The notes under the pieces are model-generated. The model saw only the letters and a list, made by a program, of their open reading frames with translations. It did not search any database and had not been told where the DNA came from. A program made the position numbers and the translations under genes. Below are positions 6,817-62,948 of a stretch of DNA of 64,000 nucleotides, one piece after another. Position 1 is the first letter of the stretch. Each line of letters begins with the position of its first letter. The DNA is taken from NCBI GenBank assembly GCA_026706485.1, contig JAPOYR010000002.1, positions 1 through 64,000 of the forward strand, written 5' to 3'. Origin of the DNA: Chloroflexota bacterium. GTDB lineage: Bacteria; Chloroflexota; UBA11872.

Positions 6817-6887
6817 GGTCGGACTCTATAGGCCCTATCGCGTCCCCGATTGCACCCCATCGTGCCCCTGTCTCTGCTCTTGCCCAA

Positions 6888-6936
6888 GACGCCCTCATAA
6901 CGCCCCCAAGACGCCCCTAAACGCTGTATAGCGCCC
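6888..6936 (-). repeat. G-rich imperfect repeats upstream of hsdR
   Basis: On the minus strand the gap between the AlbA-type gene and hsdR repeats GGGGCG units (GGGGCGT, GGGGCGC, GGGGCGT, GGGGGCGT, GGGCGT) with spacers of about 4-16 nt, starting just inside the AlbA-type gene. No promoter can be called with confidence. The tract could form a G-quadruplex or bind a regulator. Confidence 0.45.
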
Positions 6937-9113: not shown

Positions 9114-9158
9114 GCATTCCCCCTTATGGCTGCGATGGCGCAGCTTCAACGTAGTCGG

Positions 9159-12303: not shown

Positions 12304-12345
12304 GTACAAGTCTCAGGTCTTGTAATACCGCTTAATTCGGCTGAG

Positions 12346-13071: not shown

Positions 13072-14006
13072 GATGCACCATCCCGAAACGGTGCTGTCGG
13101 GGACATGTTTCGAGCGATTTCCAGTGCTCGGTTGGGATCGGCTGGACTATCCGGATAAGCATCAAGCACGATGGCCGGCAAGAGCCGTTGCGTGAGATCC
13201 GAGAAAGTAAAGCCGTAGCCACAGTCCTGTTGAGGTCCCGTGGCTGCGATCAAGACCGAAACTTGTGGGTCTGAGAAACCCAACTGGTGCAAGGGCGGCT
13301 CTAGCATGGCCAAGCGCTGCTCGGCGTCCGGCCGGGCGAATGTCAGGATATCTGCTGCGCGGCGTTGTACCGCCGGGTCTAAGGCCCCGAGCCGGTTTGT
13401 GCACATGATGACGGCAGCGGGGAGTTTGCCACGGCCAAGGCGATCTATCCCTCGTATAAAAGCGTTGACGCCTGCCCTATCCTCATGGTGCATTTGATGT
13501 GCCTCGCGCGATTGGGCGATGGCGTCCGCCTCATCTACCAGGAGAATGACGGCTCCTCGTGAAGTCCCGCTGGAGTCCTTGAGCTTCCGAGCTTCCTCTA
13601 GAGTGTGATCGAAAGCAGCGGACAATAGCTGGGTCATCTCGCCCACGCGTCCCTGTCCACGCGTAGAGAGACTCATCGGGAAAAGGTTGATGCTAACGCC
13701 CTCCCGGCGGGCAACATCGTCGCCGATGGTCTCCGCGAGCTCAGATTTTCCGGATCCGACATCACCAGCAAGTACAACAAGAGGCGGCCTTCTCAGCACT
13801 ACATCGAGCAGGCTATTAGCTCCAGGGTGGTACTTCCTCGCCCAAGAATCCAGGCCGGCCGGGTTGATGAGTAGTCCTAGGATTTTCGCTAAGCGTGCCT
13901 TATGTTCATCTAGCCCTACCAGGCGAGCCAAACGCTCCCGCGCATCCACATCTGGATAGGTGATTGGACGGTCAAACAGGACATCGATGGTCGGCCGAGT
14001 CGTCAC
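13068..14006 (-). CDS. cap6: TRIP13-like AAA ATPase of type III CBASS (Cap6)
   Basis: 312 residues. Walker A is GDVGSGKS (81-88) and Walker B ILLVDEAD (154-161). Between them lies FPMSLSTRGQGRVGEMTQLL, a stretch characteristic of bacterial TRIP13/Pch2. In characterised type III CBASS this ATPase unfolds the HORMA protein and switches off second-messenger synthesis. The GTG start overlaps the HORMA stop (GTGA) with GAGGAG seven bases upstream, and its own stop overlaps the next gene in the same way. Intact. Confidence 0.88.
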   Translation of the reverse strand: MTTRPTIDVLFDRPITYPDVDARERLARLVGLDEHKARLAKILGLLINPAGLDSWARKYHPGANSLLDVVLRRPPLVVLAGDVGSGKSELAETIGDDVARREGVSINLFPMSLSTRGQGRVGEMTQLLSAAFDHTLEEARKLKDSSGTSRGAVILLVDEADAIAQSREAHQMHHEDRAGVNAFIRGIDRLGRGKLPAAVIMCTNRLGALDPAVQRRAADILTFARPDAEQRLAMLEPPLHQLGFSDPQVSVLIAATGPQQDCGYGFTFSDLTQRLLPAIVLDAYPDSPADPNRALEIARNMSPTAPFRDGAS

Positions 14007-14521
14007 CGGTAGCTCCTCAAGCTGGCGCGATCAAGGGCACGACCACCCGCCGAGTAGGTCAGATCTTGGCTCCAGTATCCGTTGATGCCGGGTTCTGCTC
14101 CCGCAGTTCTTTGGAAGGGGAGCCTCTTGGCGAACTCCTCCTGCTGCTTCCACGTCAACTGGTTCCACGCAGAGTTGTAGGTTAGGTAGCTGTAGAAGGA
14201 CGCTCCGCTTACCTGGGCGCCGGGTCGAATCCGTCCGGGGTCATCATCGTTAGCAGTGATACCCATTAGATCTCGTGCTGTGTAGAACAGCGTCGGTTCG
14301 ATCCAGTAGCCATTCCTTCGAAAGCCATAGGCCACAGTGTCAAGGAGACCTTCCTTGAGGCACTCGATGGCCTTCGCTTCAAAGGCGCCGATCCAGTCGT
14401 CCGATGGCTCGTCGTAGAACCTCTGCATCCGCTTGAGGTCGGTGGCGACCTTCGCTGCTATATGCCTCGCATGTGTCCGGGTGAAGCTTATGGTGTCGGC
14501 AACCGTATAGCTGTAAGTCAT
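14003..14521 (-). CDS. cap7: Bacterial HORMA domain protein of type III CBASS (Cap7)
   Basis: 172 residues from ATG at 14521, which has AGGAGAAG directly upstream and starts MTYSYTVADTISFTRTHARH, the usual opening of the family. LDTVAYGFRRNGYWIEPTL and FYTARDL are further family features. HORMA proteins bind a closure peptide, often of foreign origin, and activate the CD-NTase. The start is 7 bp after the CD-NTase stop, and TRIP13 overlaps its end. A longer frame to 14617 reads into the CD-NTase gene and is rejected. The gene order CD-NTase-HORMA-TRIP13 makes the assignment firm. Confidence 0.88.
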   Translation of the reverse strand: MTYSYTVADTISFTRTHARHIAAKVATDLKRMQRFYDEPSDDWIGAFEAKAIECLKEGLLDTVAYGFRRNGYWIEPTLFYTARDLMGITANDDDPGRIRPGAQVSGASFYSYLTYNSAWNQLTWKQQEEFAKRLPFQRTAGAEPGINGYWSQDLTYSAGGRALDRASLRSYR

Positions 14522-14528
14522 CTTCTCC

Positions 14529-15494
14529 TCACACTTGAAACGAAGGGTCAAAGACCTTCCGCCAGTAGTAGACTGTCTCCTGCTTTGTCGGCGCAGCGAG
14601 GGCTGCGTCGATAGCATCGCCCGCGTCGAGGGCGGCGTCTACTATCGCGTCAGCCTCCGCGTCGGTATACAGAGCGGCAACGTTGTTCTCCTCATTTACC
14701 GGGTCGATGATCTGCACCGGATCGGAGAACTGACCAACCGCCGATGCTCGGTAATAGTCGGTGAATATGATCTTTTCCCGCATGTCGGTACGGGCGACGT
14801 ACGTGAAGAAGTGCTGAAGGGCCTCAGGGTAGTCGGAAAAGTCGAGCCCTTTGTCGCAAAGATGGGAGAGGATCATCTCTATCATGAAGGACTTGAATCG
14901 AAAGCCCGGTAACTCAGTCTTTACCCTATCTGCCCAGAACTTCACCAGGCGTACCACCTGGGCAAAATACTGCTCTTGCGCCTTCTTGCGCGTGCCTATG
15001 AATTCAAGGTGAAGCGGGATACTGGTCTCTAGGAAGGAACCATCGTCTTGGCTGACAAGCCTCCCGTACCACTGCGGATCCCCATCGTAGAGGATCGGAA
15101 CCACATCAACGTCGAGTCCCGTCCCGCGAAAAGAGACCGTGACACTGTATGTCTGGGGCTCTACCTGGTCTGGACTGAAGTTGGGGAACGCCTTGCGGAG
15201 GCGCTCAGCCAGATAGTCGAGGAGATCTGCCACATCCTGGGGTGTGTCAGCACCGCTGATGTAGCAGGCCAGGTCGATATCATTCAGCGAGCGCAGCGCC
15301 GTCCCCTTCGCAAGGCTGCCGGATAGCAGCATCTTCTTGAGAGTGAAGTCGGGATTCTCACTCAGATATCCGTCGAGCTTCTCCCGGAGGCGGCGAGCCT
15401 GTGCCCGAAATTCACTCGCCTTGTCTCGCGGGAGGTTCACCCTGTCCTGGGCGAACCTCGCGATGTCGAGATGATCAACATGCTGTCGCGCCAT
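14529..15494 (-). CDS. CBASS CD-NTase (cyclic oligonucleotide synthase)
   Basis: 321 residues. The nucleotidyltransferase signature GSLAKGTALRSLNDIDL (59-75) supplies G-S and two catalytic Asp (72, 74). The third acidic position is in GLDVDVVP (128/130). The C-terminal helical part (VRLVKFWADRV...MIEMILSH) is the OAS/cGAS-like lobe. Presumed function: synthesis of a cyclic nucleotide alarm signal on phage infection, activating the downstream effector. The clade cannot be fixed by eye; type III operons usually carry clade C or D enzymes. It starts 6 bp after the XRE regulator's end and is followed closely by HORMA. Confidence 0.88.
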   Translation of the reverse strand: MARQHVDHLDIARFAQDRVNLPRDKASEFRAQARRLREKLDGYLSENPDFTLKKMLLSGSLAKGTALRSLNDIDLACYISGADTPQDVADLLDYLAERLRKAFPNFSPDQVEPQTYSVTVSFRGTGLDVDVVPILYDGDPQWYGRLVSQDDGSFLETSIPLHLEFIGTRKKAQEQYFAQVVRLVKFWADRVKTELPGFRFKSFMIEMILSHLCDKGLDFSDYPEALQHFFTYVARTDMREKIIFTDYYRASAVGQFSDPVQIIDPVNEENNVAALYTDAEADAIVDAALDAGDAIDAALAAPTKQETVYYWRKVFDPSFQV

Positions 15495-15854: not shown

Positions 15855-15901
15855 TTGGTGGGCCGAGCGAGACTCGAACTAGGAAGCCAAGCGATTAGAA
15901 G
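15855..15901 (-). other. Degenerate tRNA-Arg(UCU)-like 3' half; first att core
   Basis: On the minus strand this reads CTTCTAA (anticodon loop, TCT), then TTCGAGTC at T-loop distance, then CGGCCCACCA. The T stem does not pair, so this is a decayed or mimic tRNA end, not a gene. The core TTAGAAG (plus strand 15895-15901) is shared with the junctions at 24687, 32982 and 45702, and the repeated element module starts at it. Confidence 0.5.
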
Positions 15902-16010
15902 AACCGCGCCGACACGCGCCGCTTCTGAGCGAGGCCAAACCTGTTACGGCTTCGAGGCCGATTTACAGGCCGTTGCCCCCTTCTTGGAGCAATGGCACGG
16001 AAATTCTACG

Positions 16011-16445
16011 CTATTTCGAGGGTAATTCCGCCTACGCCGGCGCCAGGAACTCGCAGGTCACGGCCTCAACCACGGGTCGCCGATGTACGGCACACAGATG
16101 CGGGCGGCTACGCAGGCGCAGACGTGCCGCAATGGCGACCATTGGAGCCCTCGCAATAGAGCTTCAGTGCCAGACCTGCAGTGGCTCCAGCACCGCTGAG
16201 GCTCGCTCGGTGGCCTGCTGGAGAAGGGCTCGCGATGCATGCCCATCGGCGAAAGCGCTGGCGTGCCAGGCGCCTCACTCCAGCAAGGCCAGGCAGGGCC
16301 GAGCCGAGCAGGCGATTGCCATCCGCGCGATGGTGCAAGGCATCGTCGACCCACCAGTGGCACGCCGCAATCGGCCGGCAACTGCGACGCGGTGCACGGT
16401 GAGGACTTTTCTTCCCGACGAACGGCACGGTAGCGGCCTGAGGCT
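16011..16445 (-). pseudogene. Broken copy A of the element-end HTH gene
   Basis: Homologous to the intact genes at 24803-25258 and 33098-33550. WWVDDALHHRADGNRLLGSA and LAGVRRLARQRFRRWA are in one frame. The continuation (ASRALLQQATERASAV-type sequence, then PMVAIAARLRLRSR and a TAG stop at 16011-16013) is in others. No start codon is present where the copies have theirs. At least two indels are needed, so no protein is expected. Confidence 0.7.
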
Positions 16446-16505
16446 CTCGCAGCCTAGGTGTGCTCTGTCGGAATGCCCCAAGGGTGCCGGAACTTCGCCC
16501 CGCCC

Positions 16506-16520
16506 GGAAGACAGGATTCC
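16506..16520 (-). promoter_or_regulatory. GGATTCC-type operator, copy A
   Basis: Plus-strand GGAAGACAGGATTCC, followed by GTAAG. One half-site is perfect (GGATTCC) and the other degenerate. It lies ~60 bp upstream of the HTH pseudogene, as in the other copies. Confidence 0.5.
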
Positions 16521-16793
16521 GTAAGCCGCCAATTCCCCCTTGATCGTTCGAGACGCCCGAGGCAGCCACTCTTGGTACGCGTAGCCAAGAGTCACCGGCC
16601 ATCGCCTCGAAAGTGACGACATGCGTCCATCTAGAGTCACTGACCTGAAGAGTCCAGAAACCTGAAGAGCGCCGTGGCGTTTGGTAACTGAGGAGTACTT
16701 GACCCATCGTTAGGCGTCTTAATAGTCTTGGGCAGAGAAGACGACCTGCTTCGTCAACGACTACGCCTCGTAGCGCACGGTCGGGGGAAAGAC

Positions 16794-24391: not shown

Positions 24392-24802
24392 ACAGGCTAT
24401 GGTGGCATATCCTTGAGTCACCGTTCGGGTGCCGACGGCGAGAGCTCGACGGGGCGGTCGGGCCCCCATCCAAACTCTTCGTCATTGACCTCGAACCCGA
24501 GCACCTTGTCCTTGCCATCGTCTGCGTCCGTCAGATCTCTGCCTTCGGCGCTAGTCTTGGCTTGCCGACTCATTGAATGCGCTGACCCGGACTTGGCAAA
24601 CCACCCACGAATGATCACGCTAGACGATCCGCTCGACGGCGATGCCCGCGCTCGCTAAGTCGATCAACGCGAATTCGACCTCGATCTTAGAAGAACCGCG
24701 GGAAAAACTGCCGCGTTTGCGCGACGCCAAACCTGATACGGCCTCGAGGCCGATCTACAGGCCGTTGCCCCCTTCTTGGAGCAATGGCACGGAAATTCTA
24801 CG

Positions 24803-25258
24803 TTATTTCGAGGGAAATTCCGCCTGTGCAAGTGCCAGAAACTCGCGAGTCACGGCCTCAACCGCGGGTCGCCGATAGGCGGCCCATAGATGCTGGCGGC
24901 TCCGAAGTCCCAGGCGCGCCGCAATGGCGGCCATCGGTTGGCCCTCGCAATAGAGCTGCAAAGCCAGCACTTGCCGCGGCGTCAGGATCGCCGATGCCCG
25001 CTCGGTTGCCTGCTGAAGGAGCGTACGGGCCGCATGAATGTCGGCAAAGGCGCTTCGTCGAAAGCGCTGGCGTGCCAGGCGTTGCACGCCCGGCAGTCCG
25101 ACGAGAGCAGAGTCGAGCAACCGATAGCCGTCCGCACGGTGACGCAACGCGTCGTCGACCCACCGGTAATAGGCGGCAAACGACCGCCGGCCGCGCCGCA
25201 GCGTTCGGCGGTGCGCAAGTCCACGCCCAAGAATTGGCATGTGGGCAGCCCCGGTCAT
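24803..25258 (-). CDS. Element-end HTH protein, copy B
   Basis: 151 residues from ATG at 25258 (MTGAAHMPILGRGL), chosen because copy C has a start at the aligned position; the frame is open much further upstream. The N-terminal half is basic and helical (RRGRRSFAAYYRWVDDALRH, GVQRLARQRF). The C-terminal half is a sigma-region-4/LuxR-like HTH: ILTPRQVLALQLYCEGQPMA, then AARLGLRSRQHLWAAYRRPA. Transcribed toward the att core, ~110 bp away. Likely a DNA-binding regulator of the element, e.g. of excision; no named family is recognised. Confidence 0.7.
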   Translation of the reverse strand: MTGAAHMPILGRGLAHRRTLRRGRRSFAAYYRWVDDALRHRADGYRLLDSALVGLPGVQRLARQRFRRSAFADIHAARTLLQQATERASAILTPRQVLALQLYCEGQPMAAIAARLGLRSRQHLWAAYRRPAVEAVTREFLALAQAEFPSK

Positions 25259-25317
25259 CTGCAGGCTCCGATCGAACGAGTAGTACGGCTCTAGGATGCA
25301 GACGCAGAGTCCTGATG

Positions 25318-25332
25318 GGTATGCAGGATTCC
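25318..25332 (-). promoter_or_regulatory. GGATTCC-type operator, copy B
   Basis: Plus-strand GGTATGCAGGATTCC, 60 bp upstream of the copy B HTH gene. The GGATTCC half-site is conserved and the other half is weak. Confidence 0.55.
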
Positions 25333-25335
25333 ATA

Positions 25336-32191: not shown

Positions 32192-32754
32192 CCATGCGTC
32201 GGCGCACGTGGCAATCTCGTGGCTTGGCCGGACGGGTACCAGCGGCGTGTGATGAGGCGCACCAGGGCTCGATCAAGCAGGGCGCGGCGGTACCTGCCGA
32301 GGCCGCCACCCCCTACGCCCTCCTCAGGGCGTATCACGTGTGCGCAGCGTGCCCGACGTCCCCACCAAGAGTTGCAGGAGCCGGGCGACCACGATGCCGC
32401 TAGAGATAACCACGTCTCGATGCTGATCACCTCGCCCGAGTGAAATTGAGCGAAGCGGGCATCCTGCCACATTCACACTCACGAATTGCCGACCAGCTGC
32501 GCTGCATTGCCTAACAGCCGCAAGCTGACCGATTGGGCGATGAGCTGGCTCGCTGCCACGGGTAGCGGGAGTTAACCGGCTCTATGACCTGGGTGACTGC
32601 CACTCTTCGGTTGTCCACAAGGCTACACGGGCCTCGGGACAACGCCTGCAAGCCTGCAAAACTCGATAGCACTACGTCTCGCACGGCGACATTGGCTGTC
32701 GTGGGCATCCAAATGTCTGCGGGCAAGCCGCCGCGCCGGGACCGGGTCTCCGGG

Positions 32755-32880
32755 TGGGGATCCTAAGGTCGATCGCGCCAGCGGGTGTCCGCTCCATGTC
32801 TGGTCCGAGTCTGGCCTAGGTCGGGTCGAGGCGAGGAAAAGGCCATTGGCTCCCTTATGTGAGACGCACCACACGGGATA
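32755..32880 (-). pseudogene. Remnant of the integrase 5' region
   Basis: Aligns base for base, with scattered changes, to 45475-45600, the start of the intact integrase gene. Translated fragments FPRLDPT, GPDMERTPAGAIDLRIP correspond to FSGLDPT, GPDMDRTGARPIDLRIP there. It contains stop codons. It lies ~100 bp left of the att core at 32982, the same relation as the intact gene to the core at 45702, and marks the right end of element B. Confidence 0.65.
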
Positions 32881-33097
32881 CGGGCCGCTTCCTCAGTCCG
32901 AGACCCAACTTGCGCGTCTCGGATGTTCGCCACTCCGGGTCACTGGCACCGACTTGAGTGCGCAAGCCCCCGACCATTGGCTTAGAAGAACCGCGGGAAA
33001 ATCTGCCGCGTTTGAGCGACGCCAAACCTGTTACGGCATCGAGGCCGATCTACAGGCCGTTGCCCCTTTCTTGGAGCAATGGCACGGAAATTCTACG

Positions 33098-33609: not shown

Positions 33610-33624
33610 AGAATGCAGGATTCC
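33610..33624 (-). promoter_or_regulatory. GGATTCC-type operator, copy C
   Basis: Plus-strand AGAATGCAGGATTCC, 60 bp upstream of the copy C HTH start, the same spacing as in copy B. Confidence 0.55.
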
Positions 33625-33659
33625 GTAAGCGCCGGACGGCGTCCCCGAGATTGAGAGGT

Positions 33660-34721: not shown

Positions 34722-35982
34722 ATGCTGATGCACGCAACCGTCCACAATCCCGATCGCTTTATGGGCGATCTGCGTCAGATTCTCGCTCAAGGCCGTAAGC
34801 GCATTGGCCTCCTCATCGGCGCGGGTGCACCTACAGCTCTTCTCGTGGACGACGCCAATCAGGTTGTAGACGAAGGTAATCCCCTCATACCGGATGTTGA
34901 AGGTCTCACAGACATCGTCATATCCCGCCTGTCACAAGACGACCAACATGCTATTGAGAGTATCAAGGAAGAGATTCGAAAAACTGGAGAAATAATCAAT
35001 ATCGAAACAATTCTAACCCAGATCCGTAGGCTCGCTCAGGCTATTGGTACCGAAAGCGTCCGTGGATTGACAGGCCACGAGTACAGCCAGTTGGCCGACC
35101 GGATCTGCCAAGGGATCGGAAAGGTGGTCTCCGCGATCCTTCCCGAGTCACCCAACCCTTACTCAGAGTTGGTTTCTTGGATATCCGGCACTCAGCGGGA
35201 ACATTCTATAGAGATATTTACAGCAAATTACGATCTCCTCATTGAAGAGGCGCTTGAGCGGTCTCGGATTCCCTATTTCGACGGATTCGTAGGCGCACAT
35301 GTTCCCTTTTTTTGATGCCGCAAGCGTGTCATCTGACGATTTGCCACCAAGATGGTCACGATTGTGGACGCTCCACGGGTCACTCGGATGGGCAATATCC
35401 AAAGGTATAGTTGTACGATCCGGTGGTCGAGAAGCCACGGAGTTGATATATCCAGACCACTTGAAGTATGAGCGTGTAACTCGCCTTCCATATTCCGCTC
35501 TTTTTGAGCGGCTGCGAAAATTCCTCATGACACCGGATACACTCCTGCTATGTTCGGGGTTTTCATTTCGCGATTCCCACATCTGCGCAATATTGGACGA
35601 AGCCCTAGCCGCTAATTCGCACGCAGCAATCCTGGCCATTCAATATGGTCCATTGGAAAGCGAATCGGAAGCAAGACAGCTAGCGTCTACTAGGCCGAAC
35701 ATGAGCGTCTATGCGCGGGACGGAGCTGTGATCAGTGGAATACCAGGCTCCTGGCGTTGCGGTGAGGCACCAAGTGAATACTGGGAAGATATACGATCCA
35801 CCTTTTGGCGCCCACATACTGACGATACCCTTGGAGAGTTCGTTCTTGGAGACTTCGCCGAGTTTTGTAGATTCCTTGCGTTGACCAGAGCTCAGCAAGT
35901 CACGTCAACCGAATCGGGGAGTCCTCCTACCACCGAGGCGTCGCTAAACGTCGTTGACTCCCGGCCAGATGCCGAAGCTTAG
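34722..35982 (+). pseudogene. SIR2-like protein of a SIR2-HerA pair, frame broken at a T run
   Basis: The first part (ATG 34722) has KRIGLLIGAGAP and the NAD-site segment IEIFTANYDLLIEEALERS. The second continues DAASVSSDDLPPRWSRLWTL, HGSLGW and LLLCSGFSFRDSHI. They meet at CCCTTTTTTTGATG: seven T put a stop after PFF, six would read PFFDAASV and give ~419 residues. SIR2-like enzymes hydrolyse NAD; paired with HerA they form an anti-phage complex. Because the partner genes are intact and the lesion is one base in a homopolymer, a sequencing error is plausible and the gene may be whole. Confidence 0.82.
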
Positions 35983-37834
35983 CAACGACCCTACCTTTCT
36001 TGGCGAAGTGGCCTCTGTTTCTGGAGCTGCCATTAACGTACAGCTGGCGCCCTCAGTCGCTTCCGGTACCTCAATCATCAAAGGCCACACTTACCGCGTA
36101 GCCCAAGTCGGCAGCTTTGTGCGCATTCCGCAGGGCTATCAGGATCTCTTCGGTGTGGTATCCGAAGTTGGAGCCGCTGCCGTACCTGATCACGTGCAGG
36201 CAGTAGATGAAACTGGACGCTGGATGAGAATCGAGCTGGTCGGCGAAACTACCGGCGGAATGTTCGAGCGCGGCGTAAGTCAATATCCAAATATTGGCGA
36301 TCCCGTCCACATTGCAATTGAGGAGCACCTCCGCAAGATCTATGAAATAGACGGCCAAGGTCACATAACCATAGGAACCCTGTCCAGCGCAGAGAGCATT
36401 TCGGCCAAGGTTTCCTTAAACGAGCTCGTCACGCGCCACTCAGCCGTACTTGGATCGACCGGATCTGGAAAGTCCACCACAATTGCCAGCTTGCTGCGGG
36501 CCGTTACGTCGGGCACGGACCCCGATCCTCACTATCCGAGTGCCCGTGTACTCATGCTTGATATCCACGGCGAATACTCAGAGCCACTAGCCGATGTTGC
36601 CCAAGTGTATAGCGTCGAGCCTCAGTACGGAGAGGAGCGCTTGTATATCCCCTATTGGGCACTCGAAGCGAACGACCTTTTGGGTTTTCTGGCCGGCGGC
36701 CTGGAAGGCCCTCGCGAGACGGCATTTACTGACAAGATATTTGAACTAAAACTCAAATCTCATACCGACATGCAATTCCCTGGTATTGATCCGACTTCCA
36801 TCACCGTGGATTCTCCACTACGTTTCAGCCTCAAGAAGCTCTGGTATGATCTCATAGACTTTGAACTTACGACATTTGAAGGACAGAACCGCGACGAGCC
36901 GACACTTCAGGAATACGGAGACCCGGATACACTTTCACCGCCAGTTTACAAACCACATGGCTTGGGAACTGTTGGACCATTCTTAAATCAGCGCGCAATT
37001 GGTATATTGCGTCCATTAAACTTACTACGATCCCGCCTTCTCGATCGACGATATGACTTTATGCTCCGACCAGGGCCATGGGAACCTAACCTTGACGGCG
37101 AGCCATCCAGGGACCTCGATGCACTCTTGGCAGGATGGCTCGGCGGTCCACGGCCAATTACAATACTGGATCTTTCTGGCATACCTAGTTCAGTCCTAGA
37201 GCGCCTTGTCGGATCAATTCTAAAAATTGTATACGAAGCGTTGTTTTGGAGCCGTGAGAAAACAGAAGGTGGAATTGAGCGACCGCTCTTGATTGTCATG
37301 GAAGAAGCACACCGTTACCTTTCAGATGACTCAGGTGGTTCCGATGCTACTGCGACAGCATTGGTGCAGCGAATCGCAAAAGAAGGCCGAAAGTACGGTG
37401 TAGGAGCTATGGTAGTGAGTCAACGACCGTCAGAAGTCAATGAGACTATTCTCTCGCAGTGCGGAACCTACTTTGCCCTGCGTCTCTCCAATCCGACCGA
37501 TCGAGCTCGGGTCCAAGGCACCCTCCCCGACGGCCTTGTTGGACTACTTGACGTGTTGCCCATCCTTCGCACAGGGGAGGCTGTAGTTACCGGCGAGGCA
37601 GCTAAGCTGCCGATGCGGTGCCGGGTGACGCTACCGCCGAAGGAGCATAGGCCCCGTAGCGAGGATCCAGAAGTGAGTCTAAAATGGCAGCTCTCACGGC
37701 GAGACGAAAGCTATGAGCGAGTTGTCACTTCGTGGCGCTCCCAGAGCCCACTCGCAGTTCCGCATCAATTGGATATAACCCGCGTTGAGGTAGACGACGA
37801 ATCCGACGTCGAGATAGGGGGGGATTATGAATAG
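35969..37834 (+). CDS. HerA-like ATPase of a SIR2-HerA system
   Basis: 621 residues from ATG at 35969, inside the end of the SIR2 gene (TTG 35954 is an alternative). The N-terminal HAS-barrel (FLGEVASVSGAAINVQLAPS) is followed by Walker A LGSTGSGKSTTIA and MLDIHGEYSEP, then Walker B LLIVMEEAHRYL and an Arg-finger region (QRIAKEGRKYGVGAMVVSQR). HerA forms hexameric translocases; in the known defence pair it assembles with SIR2 and activates it. Lower GC and different codon use from the flanking att modules suggest separate transfer. Confidence 0.9.
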   Translation: MPKLSNDPTFLGEVASVSGAAINVQLAPSVASGTSIIKGHTYRVAQVGSFVRIPQGYQDLFGVVSEVGAAAVPDHVQAVDETGRWMRIELVGETTGGMFERGVSQYPNIGDPVHIAIEEHLRKIYEIDGQGHITIGTLSSAESISAKVSLNELVTRHSAVLGSTGSGKSTTIASLLRAVTSGTDPDPHYPSARVLMLDIHGEYSEPLADVAQVYSVEPQYGEERLYIPYWALEANDLLGFLAGGLEGPRETAFTDKIFELKLKSHTDMQFPGIDPTSITVDSPLRFSLKKLWYDLIDFELTTFEGQNRDEPTLQEYGDPDTLSPPVYKPHGLGTVGPFLNQRAIGILRPLNLLRSRLLDRRYDFMLRPGPWEPNLDGEPSRDLDALLAGWLGGPRPITILDLSGIPSSVLERLVGSILKIVYEALFWSREKTEGGIERPLLIVMEEAHRYLSDDSGGSDATATALVQRIAKEGRKYGVGAMVVSQRPSEVNETILSQCGTYFALRLSNPTDRARVQGTLPDGLVGLLDVLPILRTGEAVVTGEAAKLPMRCRVTLPPKEHRPRSEDPEVSLKWQLSRRDESYERVVTSWRSQSPLAVPHQLDITRVEVDDESDVEIGGDYE

Positions 37835-42608: not shown

Positions 42609-43514
42609 TCAGTCGCCCGCAGAGGCGCCTAAGGACGGGCCTGCGGACGCCGAGGGGCCGTCGACGCACCACGCGTGCCTGGCATCGCGGGGACCGTAGG
42701 CCGGCCGCCAGATGGCCCCGAATGGATCGGCCACCAGCTCCGCCTCCGAGGTCGCCGCCACGTACATCCCGTTCCGTAGGCGCTCGTAGGGCAACTGGTC
42801 GAACTGGTCGATGACATCCGTCGCCAGTTCCGCGATCGCCGCCGCCCGCGTCGCCGTGATGCTCACCACCCGCAAGGCCGGGAACATCGGGTAGACGGAC
42901 GGCCAGGTCTTGGAGAGCCAGAAGCGGGCGTAGCGCCGGACCTTGGCGGCATAGCGCTTCAGGGGCTGGGTCCCCCGGTCGATCTCCAGGAACGCCCAGT
43001 GCTCACGATCATGGACCTGCAACATGACGATGGCGTCGGGATGCACGCTCCGCTGGAGCTTCGCTCCCCGTGGCAGGTACCGCACGCGACTGAAGGGGTC
43101 TGAGGTCCACTGGTGGACGTGGGTTCCGGGACTCTGCCTAGAGGCTTGCCAAACAGCCACGAGACAACGATTGGCAGCGAGCTGGTGATGCACGAAGACT
43201 GATTTGGCGGTGGGAGCATCGGGATCTACGGGGATGTCCACGATCGGAATGTCGGCAGCCTGGGAGAGCACCTGAGCGCCTGCAGGGGCGAGTGCATAGA
43301 TGTAACTGGAACGACCACCACCAAGACCACCACGAGTGAGTTCAAAGCGGTGAACGTAGCCTTTGCGATGGAGCTTGGTGCAACAGGCCTGACAGGCGCG
43401 CCGGCTGGAGGTGGTGAAGACGAGGGCGGCAATCTGCTCCACGGAGAGATAGCGGTGAAGACGAAGCACCCGCAGGACTTGAAGTTGCCGGGCGAAGGGG
43501 TGCTGGGCGGGCAT
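42609..43514 (-). CDS. Replication-relaxation family protein
   Basis: 301 residues. An N-terminal winged helix (LQVLRVLRLHRYLSVEQIAA, then a wing with LTRGGLGGGRSSYIYAL), followed by a nuclease-like body: HHQLAANRCLVAVW, VHPDAIVMLQVHDREHWAFL, EIDRGTQPLKRY. This is the PF13814 pattern, found on plasmids and integrative elements and linked to replication initiation or mobilisation. Expected cargo for element C, which also has the integrase. A weak copy of the array's palindrome lies 15-29 bp upstream of the start. Confidence 0.8.
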   Translation of the reverse strand: MPAQHPFARQLQVLRVLRLHRYLSVEQIAALVFTTSSRRACQACCTKLHRKGYVHRFELTRGGLGGGRSSYIYALAPAGAQVLSQAADIPIVDIPVDPDAPTAKSVFVHHQLAANRCLVAVWQASRQSPGTHVHQWTSDPFSRVRYLPRGAKLQRSVHPDAIVMLQVHDREHWAFLEIDRGTQPLKRYAAKVRRYARFWLSKTWPSVYPMFPALRVVSITATRAAAIAELATDVIDQFDQLPYERLRNGMYVAATSEAELVADPFGAIWRPAYGPRDARHAWCVDGPSASAGPSLGASAGD

Positions 43515-44504: not shown

Positions 44505-45653
44505 CTAGAGATTGTCGAGTGGGCTGCTGCGTCGGTGGGCCTCCACCAGGTCGCCCGTCGCCAGCGTCACGTAGCGGTTGGTGGTCGCCAGCGAGGCGTG
44601 CCCCAGCAGCCGCTGCAGCGTCAACGGGTTGCCGCCGTTGCGCAGGAAGTGCACCGCGAAGGTGTGCCGCAGCAGGTGGGCATAGAGCCGCGGGATGCGG
44701 GTGCGGCGACGCAGCCGGCGCACGATGTGGCTGACCTGCGCGGTGTCCAGCGCCCGTCCCGAGGCCGTCACGAAGAGCCGGTCGCTGGATTGGCCCAGGC
44801 CGGGCGGGCGGTGATGCAGATAGCGCCGCAGCAGGCTCAGGGCGCGGCGCCCCGCCACCACCACGCGGGACTTCTCCCCCTTGCCCACCACCCGCAACTC
44901 GCCGATGTGGAGATTGACGTCCCCGTGGCGCAGGGCCACGAGTTCGCCGGTCCGCATGCCGGTGTCCACCAGGAGTCCCACGATCGCCGCCGTGCGCCGG
45001 TCGTAGGTCTTGCGCGGATCGAACACCGCCAGCAGCCGTTCCACCTCGGCGGCGGTCAGCGGTTGGATCTCGGCCTGCGGCACCTTGGGGAGTCGCAGTC
45101 GCTCCAGCCGGTGCTCCGGCGTGATGCCCTCGTCCCACAGCCAGCGGGCGAAGGCGCGCAGGGCGCGCGCGTGCTGGTTGAGGGTGGCCGGCGCCAGCTT
45201 CCCGCCGCACCGCTCCGGCACGTCGACGAAGCGCGGTTGCTGCTGCAGGTGCACCAGGTAGCCTCGGGCCGCGTGGCGGCTGAGCGCGTCGCCCGTGGGC
45301 GCGTGCCCCAACTGCGCCTCCAGGAACCGCGTGAAGCGGTCCAGGATGCGCGTGTACATCACGATGGTGCCGCGGCTGCGGCGGGAGGCCTGGAGGTGCA
45401 GCAGGAAGGACTCGCCAAGGTCGGCCAGGGGTGGGCTGGCGTGCGGCGGCCGCGGCGTGTGCATGGGTCCCAGGATGGGGATCCGCAGGTCGATCGGGCG
45501 AGCGCCCGTCCGATCCATGTCCGGTCCGGGTCCGCCGCCGGTCGGGTCGAGGCCAGAAAAAGGCCGTTGATCACTTCGCATGAGACGCACCGTCTGGGCA
45601 CGGCCTGCAGATGCGCTCCGAGACCCGGCTAACAGGTTTGGATCGCGCGTCAC
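44505..45653 (-). CDS. int: Tyrosine recombinase (integrase) beside the tRNA-Arg att site
   Basis: 382 residues as the longest frame; the XerC-like N-terminal domain starts at ADLGESFLLHLQASRRSRGT, so a start at MHTPRPP (~45464) is also possible. The catalytic set is complete: Arg in MRTGELVALRHGD, HLLRHTFAVHFL (H-x-x-R), the LLGHASLATTNRYV segment with the second His and the nucleophile Tyr. Its 5' end is 11 bp from the tRNA fragment, and it is read away from the att. It probably catalyses integration at the tRNA-Arg(UCU) anticodon loop and served the whole array. Confidence 0.93.
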   Translation of the reverse strand: MTRDPNLLAGSRSASAGRAQTVRLMRSDQRPFSGLDPTGGGPGPDMDRTGARPIDLRIPILGPMHTPRPPHASPPLADLGESFLLHLQASRRSRGTIVMYTRILDRFTRFLEAQLGHAPTGDALSRHAARGYLVHLQQQPRFVDVPERCGGKLAPATLNQHARALRAFARWLWDEGITPEHRLERLRLPKVPQAEIQPLTAAEVERLLAVFDPRKTYDRRTAAIVGLLVDTGMRTGELVALRHGDVNLHIGELRVVGKGEKSRVVVAGRRALSLLRRYLHHRPPGLGQSSDRLFVTASGRALDTAQVSHIVRRLRRRTRIPRLYAHLLRHTFAVHFLRNGGNPLTLQRLLGHASLATTNRYVTLATGDLVEAHRRSSPLDNL

Positions 45654-45663
45654 CTCTGATGAG

Positions 45664-45708
45664 CGGCACCCCCGGCGGGATTCGAACCCACGACCGTCGG
45701 CTTAGAAG
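45664..45708 (-). other. tRNA-Arg(UCU) 3' half: att junction
   Basis: The minus strand reads CTTCTAA (loop, anticodon TCT), GCCGA, a variable segment, GTGGG-TTCGAAT-CCCGC (T arm), acceptor strand CGGGGGT and discriminator G. The D arm and 5' acceptor are missing; to the right lies the end of the T4SS operon, though CCGGC just beyond the loop would still pair with the anticodon stem. This is the expected product of site-specific integration inside the anticodon loop. Core TTAGAAG at 45702-45708. Confidence 0.85.
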
Positions 45709-45726
45709 GCCGGTGGTTGCCACGAG

Positions 45727-47722: not shown

Positions 47723-50260
47723 CTAGGCGCCGGGCTTGGGCGCGACACCGGCGCGACGGCGCGCGCCCACTGCATCCACCCTAAACGCCGGTGTCTCCAA
47801 CGCCACCCGCTCGCCGGCGCCAACGAGCGCCAGCCCTTGACCGCGACGCGCCTGCGCGAGGATGGCGAGCTCTTCGTTGCTCAGGGCAAAGGCCTCGCGC
47901 AACGCCCGCTCGTGCGTCCGATGTTGGCGGAATAACAGAGTCGCGGCGCAGTTCGCGAGGATCGCGCGCGCCTTCGGCTCCTCGACGAGGTCGGAGACAT
48001 CCTGCGACACCAGCAGCAGCATGGTCTGCAACGCCCGCGCCGTCTTGGCCAACTCAAGAAGGAAGTCGGCGCCCTGCTCGCAGCCGAGCAGCGTCCACGC
48101 CTCGTCCACCACGATCACGCGCCGCCGGTGCTCGCGATCCATCCAGTTTCGGAGATGGAGCAGGATCACGTAGTAGACCAGCGGCAGAATCTCGGCCTGG
48201 TCGGCCCGCTGGTCGCGCAGGGCAAACACCGTGCAGTCGTTGCTCAGATCGACGTTGGTTGGACGATTGAAGAGCTCGGCCAACTGCCCGGTCGTAAAGC
48301 GCTTCAGCCGCTCCAGCAGATCTCGCGCGGCTTGGCCGTACATGGCGTCGTGGCCATATCGATCCTCGATGAGCCTCACGAAGTCGGATGTGGTGGGTGG
48401 CGACCGGCCGTAAGTCGACGGATCGGCCGCCTCAATGTGCCGTCTTCGGAAGGTGGGCTCGATGGCGTTGTCGATGATGGTCCGCTGCTGCTCGCTGAGA
48501 CCCCCGAGGGCCAGCCGCCAGAATCCGCGCAGGCCGCTCGCCACCCGTGCGAAGCCGCGGGCGTCGCTCACGCCGGCCAGGTCCCAGACGTTGATGGCCT
48601 GCGACGACGCCATCGCCGGCTTGAGCATCTGTCCGTTGCAGACTCGGGCGAGGGCGCCGTATTCATTCTTGGGGTCGAGGACGGTGAGGCTGGCCCCTGA
48701 GAGCCACAACCCAAAGGCGATCTGCTTGGCGCAGTGGCTCTTGCCGCCGCCGCTCTGGCCCAACACCGCGAGGTGGGGATTCTCGTGGCGTTCGGCAAAG
48801 GGATCGATGATGACCGGGGCATGGCCGTGGCCGCCACCCACCGTCGTGCCCAGGAAGATGCCACCGGGCTCCGCGAGACCCGGCGCATGAAATGGAACTG
48901 CGGCCGCCAGCGGGCCGGTGGTCAGTCCACGCCAGCGGCCGAGGCGATCCTCTGCCAACGGCAGCAAGCTGTGCAGGCCGTCCTGCTGGTAGCCGACCAC
49001 GCGAGAGGCCGACATTCCGTGTCCCGCAAGCTCCGCCTCGACATCCTGGGTGGCCTGCTGAAGGGATTCCGCACTGTCCGCAGCAACTCCGATCACCAGC
49101 GAGGTGCGAACGTAGCGCTCGCGGGCCCGGAATGCCTCGTGGACGTCTTCGAGATCTTCCAGCCGCTGACGCGAGGCGCGGGCGGCCGCGGGGTTCAGTT
49201 CTTCGCCAGCTGCCACCTCGCTGAGCAGCTCGCGCTCGGTGCTGGACAGACGACGGCGAATCGTGCGGTCGTCGACCGGCGAGACGAAGAGCGCCAGGTC
49301 GAGGTCGTGCTTCAGCGTGGCGAACCAGCGCAGCCAGCCGGCGTCGACTTCCCGCGGGTAGCCACGCAGCGCCAGGATGCGCAGGTGGCGGGCCTTCGGC
49401 CCTGGACCCTGGACAACCAGATGGTCCGGTTGGCACGCGATCCACTCCGGAAACGGATCGGCAAGGTCAAAGCCGAAACGCGTGACCGGGAGCGCCCCGC
49501 TCCGGTATTTGATTCGGCCACCGGAGCCGTTCGCTCTCATCGCATCCTGCACTTGCTGCACGGGCGAAGATTCCGATCGAAATAGGCCCTCGACCAACTC
49601 AATGAGGTCGAGCCCCTCGAGGCGCCGACTGCTCATGCCGGCTCTTGCTAGGCCCTCGCAGACCAACCGCACCCGCGCCTCAAGCGCGCCGGGATTCACA
49701 GGTCCGTGGTCGGAGGACGGTCGCCTCGACCACCATCGACGTGAGCGTGACGGCTGGCCGTGCGCCAGCAATACAAAGCAGCGCACCTGCCGCATGTGCC
49801 AGCGACCGTGGGCAGCACGTACGGCCTCGGCATACGTCGTCGGCCGTGGGGCGTCACCATCGACCTCGGCGGTCGCCACTCCCAGCAGCCGGTGCCGCAG
49901 GTCGAGCTTGTCATCCCACGTCGCCGACCAATGGCGGACTGCATCGGTCAAGTGAGTGGCCGGTTCGAACGCGCGATTGCGCAGTACGATCTGGACCGGA
50001 CACGGGAGACTTGTCAGCAGTTGCGCCAGCCCGGACACGGCCGATGCCATTCGCGCTTCGGCCAGCAGATCGAGATTGAGTGGCCGGACTTCGAGCGCGG
50101 CGACCAGCGCGCCGTCGGACCGCAGAATGCCCTGCTGCCCGATCCCGCGCACTCCCAGCGGTAGCGGTGGATGGTCGTACGGGCCGTCATCAAGGTCTTG
50201 CAGACGTCGGAGCTGGGGCTCTCCGCTCGACGGCTCCCTCGACCGGCTATCCGTCGACAC
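47723..50260 (-). CDS. VirB4-like T4SS ATPase
   Basis: 845 residues with GTG 50260 as start, overlapping the PrgI stop by 14 bases; a frame to 50473 lies wholly within PrgI and is rejected. The C-terminal motor has Walker A AVLGQSGGGKSHCAK and Walker B RRVIVVDEAWTLLG, then LLLVSQDVSDLVEE. The N-terminal ~400 residues are the VirB4 membrane-docking domain. It powers channel assembly. With PrgI, pilin and VirB6-like proteins it indicates a conjugative or mobilising element; no VirD4 coupling ATPase or relaxase is encoded in the window. Confidence 0.9.
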   Translation of the reverse strand: MSTDSRSREPSSGEPQLRRLQDLDDGPYDHPPLPLGVRGIGQQGILRSDGALVAALEVRPLNLDLLAEARMASAVSGLAQLLTSLPCPVQIVLRNRAFEPATHLTDAVRHWSATWDDKLDLRHRLLGVATAEVDGDAPRPTTYAEAVRAAHGRWHMRQVRCFVLLAHGQPSRSRRWWSRRPSSDHGPVNPGALEARVRLVCEGLARAGMSSRRLEGLDLIELVEGLFRSESSPVQQVQDAMRANGSGGRIKYRSGALPVTRFGFDLADPFPEWIACQPDHLVVQGPGPKARHLRILALRGYPREVDAGWLRWFATLKHDLDLALFVSPVDDRTIRRRLSSTERELLSEVAAGEELNPAAARASRQRLEDLEDVHEAFRARERYVRTSLVIGVAADSAESLQQATQDVEAELAGHGMSASRVVGYQQDGLHSLLPLAEDRLGRWRGLTTGPLAAAVPFHAPGLAEPGGIFLGTTVGGGHGHAPVIIDPFAERHENPHLAVLGQSGGGKSHCAKQIAFGLWLSGASLTVLDPKNEYGALARVCNGQMLKPAMASSQAINVWDLAGVSDARGFARVASGLRGFWRLALGGLSEQQRTIIDNAIEPTFRRRHIEAADPSTYGRSPPTTSDFVRLIEDRYGHDAMYGQAARDLLERLKRFTTGQLAELFNRPTNVDLSNDCTVFALRDQRADQAEILPLVYYVILLHLRNWMDREHRRRVIVVDEAWTLLGCEQGADFLLELAKTARALQTMLLLVSQDVSDLVEEPKARAILANCAATLLFRQHRTHERALREAFALSNEELAILAQARRGQGLALVGAGERVALETPAFRVDAVGARRRAGVAPKPGA

Positions 50261-50687
50261 GGAATCCCCACCTGTGCCGGATGACGGTGGCAGACGCTTG
50301 ATCCGGCAACTCCAGGAGATAGAGCGGATCGGGAATTCGCAGACGCCGTGGTGCCCGCAGCGGTGGTCGGCGTCGGGCGACGAGACGCGGACGCAGCCAG
50401 AACCGGCCCAGCGCCACGAGGTGTCGGTCGAGCGGTTGATCATCGACCCGCACCCGCATGAGCGACCACCCAAGCAAGACCGGAAGCGCGAGGGCGAACC
50501 CCACCAGCGGGCCGAGACCGAGCCACGGCACCAGGACCGCGATCAGCCCGAGCTCGAACCCACCCAGAGCCACCAGCCAGAGCAGCTCGCGGTTGGTCAG
50601 GCGAAAGCCACCCAACGGCCAGCGGGCCGGCACATGTTCCAGATCCTCCGGGATGACGAAGCGCAGGGGCGAGGCCGGCGACGTCAC
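50247..50687 (-). CDS. PrgI family (VirB3-like) protein
   Basis: 146 residues starting MTSPASPLRFVIPEDLEHVP, the usual IPEDL opening of PrgI proteins. Two hydrophobic helices (LLWLVALGGFELGLIAVLV, LGPLVGFALALPVLLGW), then DDQPLDRHLVALGRFWLRPR. It overlaps the upstream pilin gene by four bases and VirB4 downstream. Anchors VirB4 at the membrane. Confidence 0.82.
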   Translation of the reverse strand: MTSPASPLRFVIPEDLEHVPARWPLGGFRLTNRELLWLVALGGFELGLIAVLVPWLGLGPLVGFALALPVLLGWSLMRVRVDDQPLDRHLVALGRFWLRPRLVARRRPPLRAPRRLRIPDPLYLLELPDQASATVIRHRWGFRVDG

Positions 50688-51034
50688 GTCCGGCCACCCA
50701 TCGTGTCGACCAGAAACTCGACCGCGGCCTGCAGCAGCCCGAAGTTGAAGGCCATCACCAACCCGTAGACCACCAGCGCCTGCATGGCGAAGCGGCGGGC
50801 CTCGAGCTGCGCCTCGACGCTATTAGAGGTCCAGGCGGCAATCGCCTTCCAGCCAATCGCCGCAGCCACCGCCAGGCTGGCAATCGCGGCCAGAAAGCCC
50901 TTGAGGGACTCCACCGCAAATGTGATTGGGTCGGTCGTCTGCGCAAACGCAGGCACGGCCGGCAATAGCATCAAGGCCAACAGGGTGATCGCCAGGCATG
51001 CGCGTCGACCTATGCTCACGGCTGCACCTCGCAC
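50684..51034 (-). CDS. TrbC/VirB2-like pilin subunit
   Basis: 116 residues. Signal peptide (RACLAITLLALMLLPAVPAF-AQ), then two hydrophobic helices (FLAAIASLAVAAAIGWKAI and ALVVYGLVMAFNFGLLQA) separated by a charged turn, the standard conjugative pilin arrangement. Overlaps the ATPase gene upstream by 19 bases and PrgI downstream by four. Confidence 0.72.
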   Translation of the reverse strand: MRGAAVSIGRRACLAITLLALMLLPAVPAFAQTTDPITFAVESLKGFLAAIASLAVAAAIGWKAIAAWTSNSVEAQLEARRFAMQALVVYGLVMAFNFGLLQAAVEFLVDTMGGRT

Positions 51035-52383
51035 GCCGCCTCGGGCACGGAGGCAAAACTCCGCACGACGCGGCGCAGCACGGCACGCAGTCCGCCGGGG
51101 CCGCTTCCAGGATGCGGGGGCCTCGACTGCATGAGCCCCAGGCGCTCGGCCACCTCGTCGATGGCCGAGCGAAAGGCCTCGAGCTCGTCGATCATCCAGC
51201 TGTGCGGGAGCTCACCGCGACTCTGGGCCACCCCCACGTAGGGATGTGCGTCCGGGATCACCCCGATGACTGGGATCTCGAATCCCACGCCCTCGGCAAC
51301 CAGCTTGGCGATTTCTGAGACGCGGCGGCGGTCGCGGGGTCGAACGCGGTTCAGCAATAGGAATAGCCGGTCCTCAGGCATGAATTCCGGCCCAATGTCG
51401 CGGCGGACCATCGTGATATCGCGAATGGCATTGACGATGTCGGCCTGTGCCGGAGTGACCACGTAGAGAATGCGATCCGCCCGCGCCAGCGGCTGGAACC
51501 GCCAGTGGCCGTATTCGGTGGGCAGGGTGACCACCACGGCTCCATAGGGAAAGTCACGCGCCGTGACCAGCAGCTCGCGGATCAGGTTCGGCTCTTCGCG
51601 CTCGAAGCGCGCGTTCCACTGCGCGGCTAGGTGGTCGTCGGCCAGGCCGACCATCACATGAAAGTTGCGGAATCTCTGTAGACCCGCCTGAAAACCGTCA
51701 CGATTGGGCTGGCGCAGAAACGCCGCGACGCCGGGAGTCGCATCGACCCCGCAGTAGGCCGCTAAGTCATCCTTGGGATCGCTCCCCATCAGTAGGACCG
51801 GCACGTTGCGCTCGGCGATCGCCCAGGCCAGGTTGGAGGCGAGGGTGTCCTTGCCAATCCCTCCCTTGCGCGCCGTGAGGCAGACGATCGATCGCCCCGC
51901 CGGCGGCACGGCCAATCGCTCCGCCAATTGCTCGGCGGCGGCCGTCTCATGCTGTCGTGCCCGCTGCTGCGCGGCCCGTGTGGCGCAACCGAGCGTCCAG
52001 GCCCGTCCGATCACCTCGGCGGCGTCGACGGGCCGATAGTGCACGGCATCGACGGCTGGCAAGCGCTCTAGGTCGTCGTTCATGCCGTCGTGCCAAACCT
52101 CGATGAGCACTATTGCGCGCGTGCCCTGTGCTTGAAGATCGGTCAAGAACACCAGCAAGCCGTTGTCGGCGTCCTCGGGGAATAGCTCGGTCCCGACGAT
52201 GACAACGTCGGGCTGGCTCGCCGCTACGTGGGCCGCGGCGTCGGCGCCATCCGTGGAGAGGCCGGCCAGCTCGAGTTGGCCGGCCGGCCGCTGGGCCATG
52301 GCGGCACGGACCTCCTGAATCTCGGCGGCGCGCAGCAGACACAGGTGTACCCGGATCGGCAGGCTGGTCCCCTGATCGCTCAC
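51016..52383 (-). CDS. CpaE-like ParA/MinD ATPase heading the T4SS operon
   Basis: 455 residues. The N-terminal ~125 residues resemble a receiver-like domain (VHLCLLRAAEIQEVRAAM, PDVVIVGTEL) without a clear phospho-Asp site. The rest is a MinD/ParA fold with deviant Walker A CLTARKGGIGKDTLASN, and SDPKDDLAAYCG. CpaE-type ATPases localise pilus machines; heading the T4SS genes, this one may place or time the transfer apparatus. First gene of the operon; the best palindrome of the set lies 124 bp upstream. Confidence 0.78.
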   Translation of the reverse strand: MSDQGTSLPIRVHLCLLRAAEIQEVRAAMAQRPAGQLELAGLSTDGADAAAHVAASQPDVVIVGTELFPEDADNGLLVFLTDLQAQGTRAIVLIEVWHDGMNDDLERLPAVDAVHYRPVDAAEVIGRAWTLGCATRAAQQRARQHETAAAEQLAERLAVPPAGRSIVCLTARKGGIGKDTLASNLAWAIAERNVPVLLMGSDPKDDLAAYCGVDATPGVAAFLRQPNRDGFQAGLQRFRNFHVMVGLADDHLAAQWNARFEREEPNLIRELLVTARDFPYGAVVVTLPTEYGHWRFQPLARADRILYVVTPAQADIVNAIRDITMVRRDIGPEFMPEDRLFLLLNRVRPRDRRRVSEIAKLVAEGVGFEIPVIGVIPDAHPYVGVAQSRGELPHSWMIDELEAFRSAIDEVAERLGLMQSRPPHPGSGPGGLRAVLRRVVRSFASVPEAACEVQP

Positions 52384-52506: not shown

Positions 52507-52521
52507 GGAATCCAGGATTCC
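52507..52521 (-). promoter_or_regulatory. Perfect GGAATCC-A-GGATTCC palindrome upstream of the T4SS operon
   Basis: GGAATCCAGGATTCC, a 15-bp perfect dyad about a central A, 124 bp before the CpaE-like gene. The other members of the family keep one perfect half. Likely operator of the element's regulator. Confidence 0.7.
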
Positions 52522-52724
52522 GTAATCGTCGCGGTCAGGGGGGACTACCGCGGATCGAGTGGTCGACACGTTCGTCGTGCGAGCGGATCGGCCTAAGCAT
52601 CCATGGATCACGGCGCACGGGACCGTGCCGCGGCGTTGCTCGCCACACCTGTTGCCTGCACCCCGACCGATCCAACCGTCCCGTGTACCTCCCAACAGAG
52701 TCGGAGTCTGAGTCGAGCACCGAT

Positions 52725-62341: not shown

Positions 62342-62933
62342 GCCGGCCGGGCCCGGTCGCGTCGGCGAACGCCGGCTGCCGTCGCAGCGGTGAAACGCAG
62401 CGCAGCGGGCGCTCGCCGCGGTCCGACCGGGCCGTGTCGATGCGCCGGCTTGCGATGTGGATGCCGTCCGTGCACGGCCCCATGATCCGCGCCGGTGCGA
62501 CATCGGCCACCCCAGGTTTCCGTACATTCTGTGAAGACGGGCGACCCCGCAACCTTGATCGTCTGCGCACCGCAAGGCGGCACACGTTCTGCTGCTTGGG
62601 CGAGACTTGGCACCTCCGTGGTCAGTACAGCTAGCAGAGTGATGCGAGGGTAGCGGCGAGAATTCGTGTCGGGGTGCGCGCGAGCTGGGGCAATTCACGA
62701 ATCGGTCACTGAACGGTCCGTGCCTGGAGGCTCGGTTCTCAGTTTCGAGTTTCAGAACCCAAGTCCAGCACGCTCATCTGGGCTTCTGTCGGCCGCGAGT
62801 CAAGTGTGTGACATAGCCTGGATCTTCCAGCCGAGCGTCGTGCATCTCGACGACCACCTGAACGGGCACCGGTCGGGTCGACACCTAGTCAATCTGTTGC
62901 ACGGCGCTCGCGTCAACGACATCGCAGGACTAC
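62342..62933. other. ~0.6 kb without a recognisable gene
   Basis: No gene with plausible composition; leads up to the xis-int promoter region. Confidence 0.35.
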
Positions 62934-62948
62934 GGAATCCTTGCTTCC
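62934..62948 (+). promoter_or_regulatory. GGAATCC-type operator upstream of xis-int
   Basis: GGAATCCTTGCTTCC, preceded by TAC as in the other copies (TACGGAATCC); 79 bp before the excisionase start. One half-site is perfect, the other has two mismatches. Confidence 0.55.

Follow-up and report, generated by a model that had tools for sequence, protein, structure and literature searches.

What is a small predicted DNA-binding protein doing, in repeated copies, beside the insertion site of a genomic island? The question is raised by a 64,000-nucleotide stretch of a Chloroflexota genome (the window; G000:C2:1-64000), in which three repeats each combine a GGATTCC-type site, a gene for a putative helix-turn-helix (HTH) protein, a spacer and an att core. 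A sequence-only reading had suggested that these genes are an att-proximal family that may consist of recombination directionality factors or regulators, specific to one element family. Do the proteins direct excision? Or do they control transcription? Comparison with related Chloroflexota MAGs suggests that, in tRNA-gene islands of a group of marine Chloroflexota, an unnamed small predicted DNA-binding protein beside the insertion site probably switches on mobility genes.

The repeats span about 600 bp each. Their 300-nt blocks begin at 15894, 24686 and 32981, and the first and last are 75% and 89% identical, respectively, to the middle one. Exact copies of AGAAGAACCGCG in the window are limited to positions 15897, 24689 and 32984; with up to one mismatch there are four matches, a number equalled in none of 100 shuffles. 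Two of the HTH genes are intact, their products 82% identical, and the third is broken. All three read toward a 12-bp core that lies 106 bp from the HTH stop codon, as the sequence-only reading had seen at its rounded 110 bp (Table 1). Its count of three copies was too low, as contig C10 of the same genome has three further places matching the HTH copies.

Table 1. Features of the 64-kb window discussed in the text
Feature	Position	Strand	Evidence or remark
att core, copy C	15894..15905	-	degraded tRNA-like 3' half comes after
Putative P-arm block, copy C	15935..15980	-	
HTH copy C, broken	16011..16449	-	frameshift and stops
Putative promoter box, copy C	16506..16523	-	before the broken copy
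att core GGTTCTTCTAAG, copy A	24686..24697	-	
Putative P-arm block, copy A	24727..24772	-	conserved, between HTH stop and core
HTH protein copy A, intact, 151 aa	24803..25258	-	ORF and profile match
Putative promoter box, copy A, TATGGAATCCTGCATACC	25318..25335	-	contains the GGATTCC of the earlier reading
Remnant of integrase 5' region	32744..32848	-	right end of middle unit; 80% identical to 45465-45569
att core, copy B	32981..32992	-	
Putative P-arm block, copy B	33022..33067	-	contains CCAAACCTGTTA (33022-33033, read on +), also in integrase-side arm
HTH protein copy B, intact, 150 aa	33098..33550	-	ORF; structure model m8cc7f56d4a70
Putative promoter box, copy B, TACGGAATCCTGCATTCT	33610..33627	-	
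Replication-relaxation protein	42609..43514	-	PF13814, 116 bits
Tyrosine integrase of this element family	44505..45653	-	PF00589, 119.5 bits
Putative P' arm motif CCAAACCTGTTA	45630..45641	-	between tRNA half and integrase
3' half of tRNA-Arg(TCT) including core	45665..45709	-	integrase-side att; 100% over 45 bp
VirB4/TraG-type T4SS ATPase	47723..50473	-	PF19044
ParA/MinD-type ATPase	51016..52383	-	first gene of conjugation module
Putative promoter box TACGGAATCCTGGATTCC, exact	52507..52524	-	upstream of ParA-type gene; -10-like TAGATT
Putative promoter box, 1 mismatch	62931..62948	+	upstream of 96-aa xis-like ORF adjoining integrase at 63886

The core is the anticodon loop of tRNA-Arg(TCT), and an exact 3' half of this tRNA directly adjoins the tyrosine integrase of the window. 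A tyrosine integrase beside a restored tRNA gene or its 3' half identifies an integrative element at a tRNA gene, and this is the arrangement found. An integron was considered and rejected, as the integron model gave 60 bits against a cut-off of 265 and the sites are tRNA-derived. The window integrase has the tRNA 3' half only, and a conjugation module comes directly after it. Because the intact tRNA-Arg(TCT) gene lies on another contig (L045, G000:C13:330253-330325), this arrangement suggests a rearrangement or a secondary site. The VirB4/TraG-type ATPase and the replication-relaxation protein of the conjugation module may or may not form one element with the HTH units. At G005:C14 and G011:C65 an intact tRNA-Arg gene stands beside the integrase; the outermost HTH-att junctions are found 29-49 kb to the left of the integrase. 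The order HTH, att, integrase is seen directly at three loci: G008:C35, where an HTH piece, an arm, the core, a tRNA half, a second arm and the integrase are contiguous and co-directional; G011:C45, with a tRNA-Gly half; and G130:C262, with a tRNA half in another family.

The P and P' arms have the 12-mer CCAAACCTGTTA in common, a degree of sharing reached in 4 of 5000 shuffles, and CAGGCCGT is also common to the arms on both sides. Such shared motifs are what integrase arm sites would show. The arm block occurs 34 times in 837 kb of sequence and never in the reversed sequence. The core stands at exactly +75 in 33 of the 34 (27 have an exact CTTCTAA, as counted from the listing), and an HTH gene or a piece of one precedes the block on the same strand in 31. 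The core is followed by an exact tRNA-Arg 3' half or a degraded tRNA-like end. At several of these junctions the tRNA-like 3' end is the same (AGTTCGAGTCTCGCT..), and at a few there is a hairpin (AACCTTCAC..GAGGTTC); these shared ends may be the right end of a second type of unit, one that lacks an integrase. Most arm blocks have no integrase at the core and are att-bounded units without a recombinase. In cis-mobilizable elements and accretion arrays, att-bounded units without an integrase are likewise stacked at one tRNA site; the arrays described here differ in that most units retain a putative regulator gene at the att end.

How widely is the arrangement found? A four-sequence profile searched in 61 genomes found the family in 16. 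In the window's own family of genomes the HTH gene is present in 10 of 19, with up to 16 matches per genome, and 8 of the 19 have both integrase and HTH gene, 2 the HTH gene only, none the integrase only and 9 neither (Fisher p 0.0007). A wider profile run against 350 genomes of the phylum (E<=1e-10) returned 17 with HTH, the same 10 and seven others. Each G handle is one genome per species, which partly controls for the inflation of these counts by shared descent of similar copies.

In the window's own family, matches reaching the C-terminus (profile end >=139; 51 of 71 rows) were inspected for landmarks across all subfamilies. Within 1.5 kb downstream, 40 of the 51 have an att or tRNA 3' end, although two of these are doubtful, their landmarks being tRNA-Thr at distances of 759 and 1049 bp; on the upstream side the number is 6 of 51. 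Five of the 11 matches without a downstream landmark come after an integrase, and at another, G005_C14_160954, an altered att is visible. Altogether six matches lie 105-154 bp behind a tyrosine integrase, one of which is also among the 40. There is no att near G000_C10_414271, G003_C31_300170, G003_C31_258752, G005_C28_51584 and the fragment G000_C10_409912. Among the matches of the wider profile, the rule was applied to genomes other than G090 and G166, where the match is a domain of a long protein, and to contigs other than G242:C43, which ends 32 bp after the HTH gene.

Four subfamilies can be told apart; they are divergent, at 27-37% identity to the window protein. Type I genes face tRNA-Arg. 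The six loci of type II are the copies 105-154 bp behind an integrase, with a tRNA-Leu end on the integrase's upstream side. Type III (four loci) faces a tRNA-Leu 3' end at 258-293 bp, two of those tRNAs being intact (ARAGORN), and type IV (five loci) faces a tRNA-Gly half. The family is therefore not specific to one element family, as the sequence-only reading had supposed. Stand-alone relatives elsewhere in the phylum are in integrative elements too. In the distant G130, HTH gene, tRNA half and integrase stand in line; in G070 and G242 the HTH gene reads toward tRNA-Lys and tRNA-Pro 3' ends, respectively, at about 130 bp. In G052, HTH gene and integrase lie near opposite ends of a stretch of about 38 kb flanked by tRNA-Gly and a tRNA-like half. 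The HTH gene of G068 belongs to an element with a serine recombinase at tRNA-Val and is 2.6 kb from the recombinase, not beside att.

Profile search and inspection of neighbours thus tie the family to att sites and integrases, and its members are not mainly chromosomal sigma or LuxR factors far from integrases. One exception exists: in other Chloroflexota a related domain is fused into long proteins of signalling type (L065-L069), a likely origin of the HTH family. A free chromosomal LuxR or sigma factor is ruled out by the family-model scans, the integrase neighbourhood and the 40 landmarks. No phage or plasmid gene was matched by similarity when the window protein was compared with viral contigs and plasmids and the G130 relative with phages and plasmids.

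The window proteins matched no Pfam, NCBIfam or PHROG model at its cut-off or with a significant E-value, which bears out the earlier statement that no named excisionase or regulator is known to have this layout. No literature naming the family was found at the level of titles and the beginnings of abstracts, a scope that leaves most subscription journals outside. The family is real and conserved, has no name in the libraries searched, and is associated with integrative elements in several families of Chloroflexota.

What kind of protein is it? The HTH call is weak at the sequence level (best HTH_23, E=0.007, below the Pfam cut-off), and the predicted fold agrees with it. Structure prediction, which the sequence-only reading had proposed for the N-terminal half, gave an all-helical model for copy B (pLDDT 82.6; residues 1-21 of low confidence). 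VIA-align ranked the phage 21 Q antiterminator first (6jny_B, Z 8.4, rmsd 3.1, 98 residues), a score within the range near 8 that helical folds can reach by chance, and sigma region 4 next. Over model residues 25-149, the two Q structures (PDB 6jny and 6p18) gave Z 8.4 and 6.7; identity to Q is 11-12%, with no sequence-family match, and Q belongs to a different kind of element. Foldseek on the model returned nothing at E<=0.001. The fold is predicted to be sigma-region-4- or phage-Q-like and not that of a winged-helix Xis. A LuxR/GerE regulator was rejected, as the GerE domain scored 13.1 and 12.3 bits where the cut-off is 23.5. A sigma-70 or ECF sigma factor was also rejected: the proteins are about 150 aa, have no Sigma70_r2 match up to E=1 and have weak superfamily matches only. 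DUF1492, which we take to be akin to the RinA-ArpU regulators, was matched by remote relatives only (21.6 bits, cut-off 21.5, and 18.7) and by none of the HTH family members scanned. Antitermination of the Q kind, in which the protein acts at a paused RNA polymerase so that a terminator is bypassed, and DUF1492/RinA kinship are both possible; a common fold shows no function.

Upstream of the type I copies the similarity starts abruptly at TACGGAATCCTGC, and comparison of upstream regions confirmed the GGATTCC site as real and as part of an 18-bp box with the consensus TACGGAwTCCTGsnTTCC. Allowing up to two mismatches, 10 HTH-bearing genomes contain 70 boxes in all and 8 HTH-free relatives contain 8, the HTH-free G016 having been excluded (one-sided Mann-Whitney p 0.0015); the reversed pattern gave 1 and 3. 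Two genomes with the HTH gene, G010 and G015, have no box at 0-1 mismatch. In G010 a shorter 12-mer precedes the gene; the exact 12-mer has 20 matches in HTH-free genomes, 18 of which were inspected.

Boxes also stand before other genes. In G000, G002, G005 and G007 one lies upstream of the ParA-type gene that opens the conjugation module; others precede xis-like ORFs in the neighbourhood of other integrases, or an ORF of 99-100 aa located behind two integrases. For the window integrase itself, no preceding box was found. An exact box also lies before a 126-aa ORF of unknown function (G000:C5:18820, G002:C36:9300). Among 50 collected sites an A at position 39 and a T at position 43 stand out, both outside the pattern used for the box search; both are present in 28 of the 32 boxes that belong to HTH genes and in 17 of the 18 others. 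This promoter-like architecture suggests that A39 and T43 belong to a -10 hexamer at a fixed distance, which would place the box at about -49 to -32. Because of this placement, the box likely replaces the -35 element and defines a promoter class of its own. In DNA this rich in GC, a long open frame across the box did not tell coding and non-coding sites apart, and the promoter reading therefore rests on the counts and the -10 signature.

Fold, box and box targets together point to a transcription regulator. We consider it just on the probable side that the proteins are island-borne transcription regulators of the sigma-4/Q-like kind, located at att and driving box promoters of mobility genes. 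The HTH gene would lie at the end of a tRNA-targeting integrative element, immediately inside att and reading toward it. Its product would bind the box, centred near -40, and drive -35-less promoters of its own gene, the ParA-type conjugation gene and xis-like genes. In a circular or tandem element, HTH gene, attP (with the tRNA 3' half) and int would line up co-directionally, so that only in this state could transcription from the HTH unit cross attP into int. A terminator-like hairpin between HTH gene and core of copy A (1 found, 0.8 expected by chance) is weak; it would hinder read-through and argues for caution.

Could the proteins be recombination directionality factors instead, binding the P arm, bending attL and attR and making the integrase excise? 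Accreted units without an integrase would then each keep a copy since the factor acts best in cis. The att position and the conserved arm make such a role conceivable. As expected of a directionality factor, the gene is adjacent to att or the integrase, some 110 bp from the core or, in type II, directly behind int, and the protein is small with a basic N-terminus. The arms have their 12-mer in common, and the arm region is conserved above silent sites: among 13 intact type I copies, identity is 79.5% in the spacer from HTH gene to core and 52.5% at fourfold sites, with the spacer ahead in all 78 of 78 pairs. Almost all units lack an integrase, yet the HTH gene is kept at nearly every arm block. 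Winged-HTH or MerR-like folds are common, though not universal, in Xis/RdfS directionality factors, and the fold predicted here is neither; among the matches listed for the window proteins there is no HTH_17 or other Xis-type match, and unlisted folds could still exist. Moreover, the box regulon includes conjugation genes, and a separate HTH_17 xis-like gene stands beside the HTH gene in G242 (36.4 bits, above the cut-off) and G130 (19.8 bits, below it). We regard this role as unlikely. Directionality factors can also act on transcription, so that the two readings overlap. Between the earlier alternatives, directionality factor or regulator, we favour the regulator, because the fold is not Xis-like and GGATTCC lies in a promoter-type element common to conjugation and xis-like genes. 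According to one account, Xis/RdfS factors are small DNA-binding ICE proteins that act with a tyrosine integrase (PMC11963761); their winged HTH fold differs from the sigma-4/Q-like fold predicted for this family.

The box itself might serve some other regulator as its operator, whether a host factor or the product of another element gene, with the HTH gene as one target and the HTH protein left with a narrower job at att. This would fit the boxes at non-HTH genes, the near-perfect box variant in G004, a relative without an HTH match, and the divergence of the subfamilies while their boxes stay similar. However, at 0-1 mismatch (counted from the listing) boxes are nearly confined to HTH-bearing genomes, 49 against 1, and types II, III and IV, like type I, each have a box version before their own gene, with small subfamily-specific changes. 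An operator of this kind seems improbable to us. Very improbable is a passive marker, the last gene of a successful parent element carried along at a conserved end with no role at att: tandem insertion grows arrays and copies ends, and many HTH copies are broken or truncated, but the gene is under strong purifying selection (median dN/dS 0.129 in the 13 intact type I genes of a set of 16 that also held two frameshifted copies) and keeps this position across several subfamilies and families whose tRNA targets differ.

Transcriptional control at att has partial counterparts in known systems. In ICEKp1 and ICEclc, a promoter at the opposite end of the element is described as driving int across attP in the circular form only (PMC13023037). 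In those elements it is a promoter that occupies the element end (PMC13023037); in the islands described here the place would be taken by a regulator gene under a boxed promoter of its own, and read-through is putative. The Dehalococcoides ssrA islands, of the same phylum and alike in tandem architecture, are reported as tandem at an RNA gene, with repeated 3' ends, varied cargo and recombination genes beside one att, many islands having no integration module (PMC3146451). They use the serine recombinases DsiA and DsiB and a tmRNA target, whereas the target here is a tRNA, and the six module genes listed in that account include no such HTH gene (PMC3146451).

A wider reading joins att-end regulators with their own promoter class to a circularisation-dependent operon and to the survival of integrase-less units through a copy in cis; as a whole it is possible, if rather doubtful. 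The box promoter class would switch on xis-like genes, conjugation and the HTH gene itself, and the HTH gene at attP would make the HTH-attP-int operon dependent on circularisation. Units without an integrase would persist in defence-rich arrays, each keeping a cis-linked regulator while one integrase serves all.

Defence genes are present along the window. Type I restriction-modification genes occupy its leftmost part (3811-12309). A CBASS-type set on the minus strand, with oligonucleotide cyclase, TRIP13 and NucC (12346-15494; PADLOC), stands just left of the first att core, and a SIR2 (split: 34722-35315, 35299-35982) and HerA defence pair lies in the third unit (34722-37834). Since the contig itself starts at position 1 of the window, the array is cut at the left.

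Mobility control of genomic islands seems little described in Chloroflexota. The family offers a nameable protein, a concrete predicted binding site and a marker of element ends; arm block and core mark att junctions, with no match in the reversed-sequence control. Uncultured marine genomes become parsable into island units, and the accumulation of integrase-less, defence-loaded units (CBASS, type I restriction-modification, SIR2-HerA) at one tRNA target becomes testable. This provides a testable handle on how genomic islands move and pile up.
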